A DNA stretch of 11,231 nt from an uncultured Bacteroidota bacterium (lineage in GTDB: Bacteria; Bacteroidota; Bacteroidia; Flavobacteriales; BACL11). How positions within the stretch are numbered: position 1 is the stretch's first letter; every line of letters begins with the position of its first letter. The notes under the pieces were generated by a model. That model saw only the letters and a list, made by a program, of their open reading frames with translations, had not been told where the DNA came from and did no database searches. Positions 969 to 2,490 of this stretch are shown piece by piece. A program made the translations under genes and the position numbers. The stretch covers positions 50,001 through 61,231 of the forward strand of contig CABXPN010000002.1 of the NCBI GenBank assembly GCA_902514225.1. The letters run 5' to 3'.

Positions 969-2490
<1,522 letters not shown>

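Follow-up and report, generated by a model that had tools for sequence, protein, structure and literature searches.

A UCUCC anti-Shine-Dalgarno core in a Flavobacteriales 16S rRNA gene, probably freed by the loss of its last client messages

The 16S rRNA gene in the window, the whole 11,231-nucleotide stretch of DNA analysed here, ends in an anti-Shine-Dalgarno (anti-SD) core of UCUCC instead of CCUCC. Comparison with relatives makes it likely that this tail was freed after its last SD clients were lost, and that it is now drifting by C-to-U change. Relaxed selection and C-to-U drift had both been proposed in the first-pass annotation, and both are supported: the former by leaders that lack an SD site, those of rpsU across the window's family and those of rpsR in the closest kin, the latter by nested C-to-U changes in the tails of the kin.

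The match to the 16S model covers every model position (Table 1), so the gene is intact. Its 3' end reads GGCTGGAATATCTCCTTT (positions 986-969, minus strand), and the longer minus-strand sequence over the tail is GGAAGGTGTGGCTGGAATATCTCCTTTTTAGAG. The reading of an altered anti-SD with U in place of C at 1533 and 1535 was confirmed on this full-length gene: T978 corresponds to U1533 and T976 to U1535, both T's recur in kin, and the tail differs by C1533U and C1535U from the reference GGCTGGAACACCTCCTTT, which is the tail of most CCUCC genomes in this study. The interval first assigned to the tail, 969-985, was one base short of the 18-mer quoted for it. Downstream of the 16S gene on the minus strand come tRNA-Ile, tRNA-Ala and the 5' part of the 23S gene. 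Upstream of the 16S gene lie purE, a 269-aa protein without a Pfam match, a 676-aa helix-hairpin-helix protein (an assignment that scores below the Pfam cut-off), a nitronate monooxygenase-like protein, upp, a HAD hydrolase, aroA and aroB. Apart from the entry for the window itself, the 676-aa protein has five near-identical relatives (98-100%), of which NCBI labels two as Flavobacteriales.

Table 1 Features of the window that bear on the 16S tail and its surroundings.
Feature	Position	Strand	Evidence
16S rRNA gene, full length	969..2490	minus	Rfam RF00177, 1526 bits, model 1-1533 of 1533
Anti-SD core UCUCC instead of CCUCC (C1535U at 976)	972..976	minus	Sequence; kin tails
C1533U, common to all seven kin tails read	978	minus	Sequence; kin tails
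tRNA-Ile(GAT), rrn spacer	834..908	minus	ARAGORN
tRNA-Ala(TGC), rrn spacer	751..825	minus	ARAGORN
23S rRNA gene, 5' part, cut by window end	1..709	minus	Rfam RF02541
purE, beside rrn	3265..3777	plus	Pfam PF00731; synteny

The kin of the window are one family of 52 genomes of 0.8-2.1 Mb, mostly draft assemblies; G numbers below denote genomes of this family and of others. The family came to light when the 16S gene was searched against 296 genomes in the order of G002, where the matches listed include six of its members at 93-94% over the full gene. As a probe for kin, the 676-aa protein matched 311 of 399 genomes in the order of G001 with a best identity of only 43%, and matched none of 12 in the family of G002 and none of 60 in that of G003. 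A search of plasmids with the window 16S gave a nearest match of 83.7% over the whole gene, among five listed of 518 records. Adjacency of rrn and purE is common to the window and 15 family genomes and is a guide to the window's placement. When the tail is left out of the alignment, 16S trees join the window to G559 and G638 (support 99/96 and 100/96), which are represented there by their first 240 and 440 bases only.

A readable tail was present in seven family genomes. Six (G769, G671, G552, G686, G571 and G595) carry AATATCTCTTTT, with both T's of the window and one further step that makes the core UCUCU, and G691 ends in AATACCTCCTTT, with U1533 and a CCUCC core. The comparison with relatives that had been called for thus found both T's in six independent assemblies and U1533 in a seventh. 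With the window included, C1533U occurs in 8/8 tails, C1535U in 7/8 and C1539U in 6/8; every change is C-to-U, and the changes are nested. Each family genome with a 16S match has one 16S place (in two pieces in G595), although drafts can hide copies, and the tail and genes of any one genome could stem from misbinned contigs. The UCUCU genomes form no clade in the 16S tree, yet such a clade is not rejected (AU p = 0.10). A clade of the window and the kin that lack an rpsR SD is neither supported nor rejected (p = 0.21), and no 16S tree resolved UCUCC as a step towards UCUCU.

A pattern scan for the UCUCC tail across one genome per species (84,980 species) returned 63 loci, of which 22 were not rRNA and 41 were 16S ends in 39 records, mostly Bacteroidota. 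The carriers include five species of Brumimicrobium, Fluviicola-like genomes, the insect endosymbionts Walczuchella and Uzinura, Psychroflexus, Mesohalobacter, AG- single-cell genomes, Alistipes sp. dk3624 (L063) and Fibrisoma limi, which has the same tail at two places (L011, L039), among others. On the 16S tree, at least 13 core changes are needed for the 74 genomes of known state. Two records in this set appear mislabelled or mixed. CP034120.1 (G021; L005, L009), labelled Glaciecola amylolytica, has a Fluviicola-like 16S and shares its exact bS21 sequence with the Fluviicola genome G026, and its label seems mistaken. In G022 (OLB9, L006), the 16S of the rrn contig groups with the L001 lineage and bS21 does not, so that the rrn contig is likely misbinned. 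Two more single-step variants, ACUCC and CCUCA (L248 = G500 and L149 = G508), were also seen, both in genomes without an rpsU SD.

The state of the tail was then set against the leader of rpsU, the gene for bS21. Each leader was duplexed with the tail of its own genome, and a strong SD was defined as -9 kcal/mol or below, with start codons chosen by script. A strong rpsU SD was found in 32/43 CCUCC genomes (51 loci) and in none of 35 UCUCC genomes (36 loci; best -6.4), 7 UCUCU genomes, one ACUCC genome and one CCUCA genome. All 33 UCUCA genomes had one, with TGAGATG ahead of rpsU. When the cut-off was relaxed to -7 or below, the CCUCC count alone shifted, to 33/43. The SD zone held GGAGG 26 times and GGGGG six times among the 51 CCUCC loci, and TGAGA in 33/33 UCUCA loci. 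Neither GGAGG nor GGAGA occurred in the zones of the 36 UCUCC and 7 UCUCU loci, where AGAGA was found once and TGAGA once (in UCUCC). A strong rpsU SD is missing from 11 of the 43 CCUCC genomes as well, which indicates that loss of the SD does not by itself bring decay of the tail; these eleven include G510, which lies near the cut-off (-8.3, AAAGGAG), and G560, whose bS21 frame contains a stop.

The UCUCC sample comprised 37 of the 39 records, taken as genomes (L029 and L051 were not), less G036, in which bS21 fell into two matches, and G023, in which the tail is cut by the contig start; G022 was counted as UCUCC despite its likely misbinned rrn contig. The controls were the 16S places among the matches listed that reach the 3' end, and not the whole order. 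Of many 600-kb genomes, two were included, and G742, G635, G723, G516 and G763 were left out, as was G773, which had no bS21 match. No bS21 was found in G671, which has a UCUCU tail.

The association was assessed on a 16S tree from an alignment with the tail removed. Two two-trait models were compared, one that ties the rate of anti-SD change to the rpsU SD and one that keeps the two independent. The dependent model was preferred for 69 genomes with UCUCA excluded (p = 1.3e-4; 1.5e-4 without four distant rows) and for 74 genomes with UCUCA scored as an anti-SD change in the presence of the SD (p = 4.3e-4), runs in which the UCUCC genomes had been chosen by tail. It was also preferred for 27 genomes from the 16S search, none picked by its tail (p = 0.011). 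A 42-genome run gave p = 5.5e-3, but 20 of its 16S genes had been picked with tails known, and the 27-genome run was therefore relied on instead. Behind all of these p values stand a single quickly built tree, a chi-square approximation and a small number of changes. An independent-pairs sign test, applied to sisters differing in both traits, was not significant (median p = 1). In about 4.8 of the 6 independent pairs the CCUCC sister was already without the rpsU SD, a pattern that fits loss of the SD first; this order is read from the pattern and not from a significant test.

These data also bear on an alternative in which the clients play no part. C-to-U changes at 1533 and 1535 keep a wobble pair, and near-neutral or adaptive tuning could have fixed them through AT bias or through fit to Era or to the bS21/bS18/bS6 pocket, regardless of clients. 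Since GGAGG can still form a G.U pair after a C-to-U change, these substitutions are mild and might arise without client loss, and GGAGG sites do persist in prfB or rpsR beside a UCUCC tail in G037 and G025, which speaks against decay. That all changes in the family are C-to-U also agrees with tuning, as does scattered variation at bS21 position 54, a tyrosine in F. johnsoniae: this residue is histidine in three UCUCC genomes (G003-G005) and in 18/33 UCUCA genomes, and phenylalanine in G769. The tyrosine is present in 37/38 family loci with a clear start.

In F. johnsoniae the tail is bound by bS21, bS18 and bS6 (PMC9976891, PMC8710568). Positions 1537-1539 are predicted to touch bS21 and bS18, with 1535 outside these contacts, and Era contacts the same stretch of 16S rRNA (PMC8710568); the C1539U of the kin lies within 1537-1539. 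The single core changes tested were tolerated by F. johnsoniae (PMC8710568). In E. coli, C1535U alone was dominant negative and supported no growth (PMC8710568, Table 1). Tuning further predicts that UCUCC should also occur beside a strong rpsU SD, whereas none of the 35 UCUCC genomes had one, and the dependent model was preferred. We therefore consider fixation regardless of clients unlikely. In this lineage the tail may still lie within the bS21/bS18/bS6 pocket, judging from the Y54 kept in the kin, and initiation would then not depend on the sequence of the tail.

Within the window's family, GGAGG or GGAGA was found before rpsU in none of 41 bS21 loci, of which 38 had an unambiguous start codon. 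The rpsU leader, in which GGAGA had been suggested as the site to look for, is thus negative in the kin. The expectation that rpsU is a keeper of SD sites held for most CCUCC genomes; in the window's family, rpsR, the gene for bS18, carries the site instead, where one is found. GGAGG precedes rpsR in 4 of 47 family genomes (G691, G545, G584 and G740), the tail being known for G691 only, and GGAGA precedes it in none of the 47. The CCUCC genome G691 has AAAAGGAGG before rpsR (duplex -12.8), the outgroup genome G504, also CCUCC, has AGGAGG there (-10.3), and neither has an rpsU SD. Conversely, the CCUCC genomes G503, G607, G568 and G525 have an rpsU SD and no rpsR SD. All six CCUCC genomes in which both leaders were examined thus carry an SD at one of the two genes and not at the other, which suggests that the SD role passed from rpsU to rpsR before both vanished. 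The rpsR SD was absent from six UCUCU family genomes, from G559 and G638, and from all 15 genomes with rrn beside purE. That adjacency was not seen in the four genomes with an rpsR SD, in G725 (no rpsR SD) or in eleven outgroup loci. The rpsR genes of G676 (a fragment) and the second copy of G661 were excluded. As an aside, the 16S of G740 looks misbinned. Beyond the family, an SD-like rpsR site was found in G024 (-7.8, GGAGAG) and G025 (-7.5, AGGAGG retained) among the 16 UCUCC genomes in which rpsR was read.

The release factor gene prfB was matched in 66/66 genomes searched. For G504 and the seven family genomes whose tail is known, it begins at model position 1-4 (2-4 in the seven) in an open frame of 359-383 aa, and prfB in these eight genomes appears to lack the SD-dependent +1 frameshift. 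The DNA was scanned for a shift site in G552, G769, G691, G686, G571 and G504; most one-frame prfB genes were classed by match start and open frame, and G013 and G031 were left unclassed. Of the 32 UCUCC genomes searched, 10 have a CTTTGAC shift site, as do 12 CCUCC genomes. The SD-like element ahead of it was AGGAGG or AGGGGG in 8 of the CCUCC genomes and decayed in 4. Among the 10 UCUCC genomes it was GGAGA in two (G024, G025), GGAGG in two (G037, G022) and decayed in six. The two matched stimulators (AGGAGA) read AGGAGATATCTTTGAC in G024 (Fibrisoma limi, L369) and AGGAGATTTCTTTGAC in G025 (L398). CTTTGAC was kept with little or no SD-like element in G015, G014, G718, G533, G033 and G001 (L384, L402, L404, L406, L409, L412). 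Compensation in UCUCC genomes thus occurs but is partial by the motifs read, and is not seen in the window's family.

A wider search for an alternative SD was made for 75 genes in 120 kb of the UCUCU genomes G686 and G769. GGAGG, GGAGA and AGAGA occurred in 0/75 SD zones; in mock zones they occurred 0, 1 and 1 times. Pairing to the genome's own tail averaged -0.34 in the SD zone, weaker than the -1.16 of the mock zone. In the window, as first noted, neither GGAGG nor GGAGA stands before a start, here judged from the SD zones of eight script-called ORFs, which agree with the two kin genomes in showing no enriched alternative SD.

The alternative kept open in the first-pass annotation, a co-evolved SD/anti-SD pair, must be judged against these leaders. 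It holds that some mRNAs of the window organism carry GGAGA to match UCUCC, as rpsU matches UCUCA. Such pairs do exist, in the 33/33 UCUCA genomes with TGAGATG before rpsU and, for UCUCC itself, in prfB of G024 and G025 and rpsR (GGAGAG) of G024. In the window's family, however, neither the 41 rpsU loci nor the rpsR leaders of 47 genomes hold the matching site, prfB is apparently unshifted in seven kin, none of 75 kin genes has one, and no matching site stands at the window's starts. A matched pair in this organism is accordingly improbable, clearly more so than tuning. Least probable by a wide measure is that the assembly is wrong here, or that this rrn copy has decayed while another in the genome is canonical: the window tail does rest on a single contig, but the 16S gene is complete, six kin genomes carry both T's and a seventh carries one, and UCUCC is found in 39 records, twice in Fibrisoma limi.

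The reading we prefer, loss of the SD clients followed by drift, can be set out as a sequence of steps. An ancestor would have kept CCUCC because a few mRNAs (rpsU, here rpsR, and elsewhere prfB) needed pairing for autoregulation or frameshifting. With the client sites gone, positions 1533, 1535 and 1539 would have been free to change from C to U, and the window's anti-SD would have begun to drift because little or nothing still pairs with it. We infer that the window organism's own rpsU, rpsR and prfB, which lie outside the window, resemble those of its kin. In its full form the proposal is that in Bacteroidota only a few client mRNAs (rpsU, rpsR and prfB) keep the anti-SD, that in the window's family these clients were lost in turn (first rpsU, with its role passing to rpsR, and then rpsR, with prfB unshifted), that the tail then changed stepwise by C1533U, C1535U (the window) and C1539U (the kin), so that one family would show a series from CCUCC to UCUCU, and that Fibrisoma compensated instead through prfB and rpsR. 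This detailed account is tentative, and about as apt to fail in one of its parts as to hold.

Several known systems resemble the window in part. F. johnsoniae rpsU has a long SD through which it is autoregulated by bS21-less ribosomes, and rpsR SDs are present in other orders (PMC9976891, PMC8710568). This autoregulation (PMC9976891) is the client system whose loss is proposed here; unlike F. johnsoniae, the window's family has no SD at rpsU, an rpsR SD occurs in G691, G545, G584 and G740, and Y54 is mostly kept in the kin. A subset of Flavobacteriales, Chryseobacterium and relatives, has UCUCA with a compensatory rpsU SD (PMC8710568, PMC9976891), and the 33 UCUCA genomes presumably belong to this group. 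These Flavobacteriales share C1535U with the window, but their core is UCUCA and not UCUCC: they carry C1539A as well and a matched rpsU SD, whereas the window keeps C1539 and no matched SD was seen in its kin. Organisms without CCUCC in which SD sites are scarce have been described as class iv, with Alistipes sp. dk3624 and Fibrella as examples (PMC10783764). The window has a core of this kind, and no SD site was found at the eight window ORFs or at the 75 genes of two kin genomes; Alistipes sp. dk3624 is itself one of the UCUCC matches (L063). The main text of PMC10783764 does not mention prfB or rpsR and mentions rpsU once, in its introduction, and the examples it shows do not include the window's family. 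Blattabacterium is among the organisms without CCUCCU (PMC6107228), and we infer from their size that the two 600-kb genomes G606 and G687 are Blattabacterium, for G606 also from its place in the tree. They have UCUCU like the window's kin and no rpsU SD, but are reduced genomes that stand beside insect symbionts in the tree, whereas the window's family has genomes of 0.8-2.1 Mb. Among the papers covered by our literature search, we found none that ties loss of the rpsU or rpsR SD to an uncompensated change of the anti-SD.

These findings address the puzzle of why the anti-SD is near-invariant in organisms that hardly use SD sites. A strong rpsU SD in 0/42 UCUCC and UCUCU genomes, and a matched one in 33/33 UCUCA genomes, suggests that a few autoregulated messages hold the anti-SD in place. 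If the frameshift stimulator of prfB pairs with 16S rRNA in Bacteroidota, the GGAGA that matches the tail in two UCUCC genomes would be evidence of it from nature. For testing the hold of client messages on the anti-SD, the window's family provides naturally occurring states from before and after their loss.
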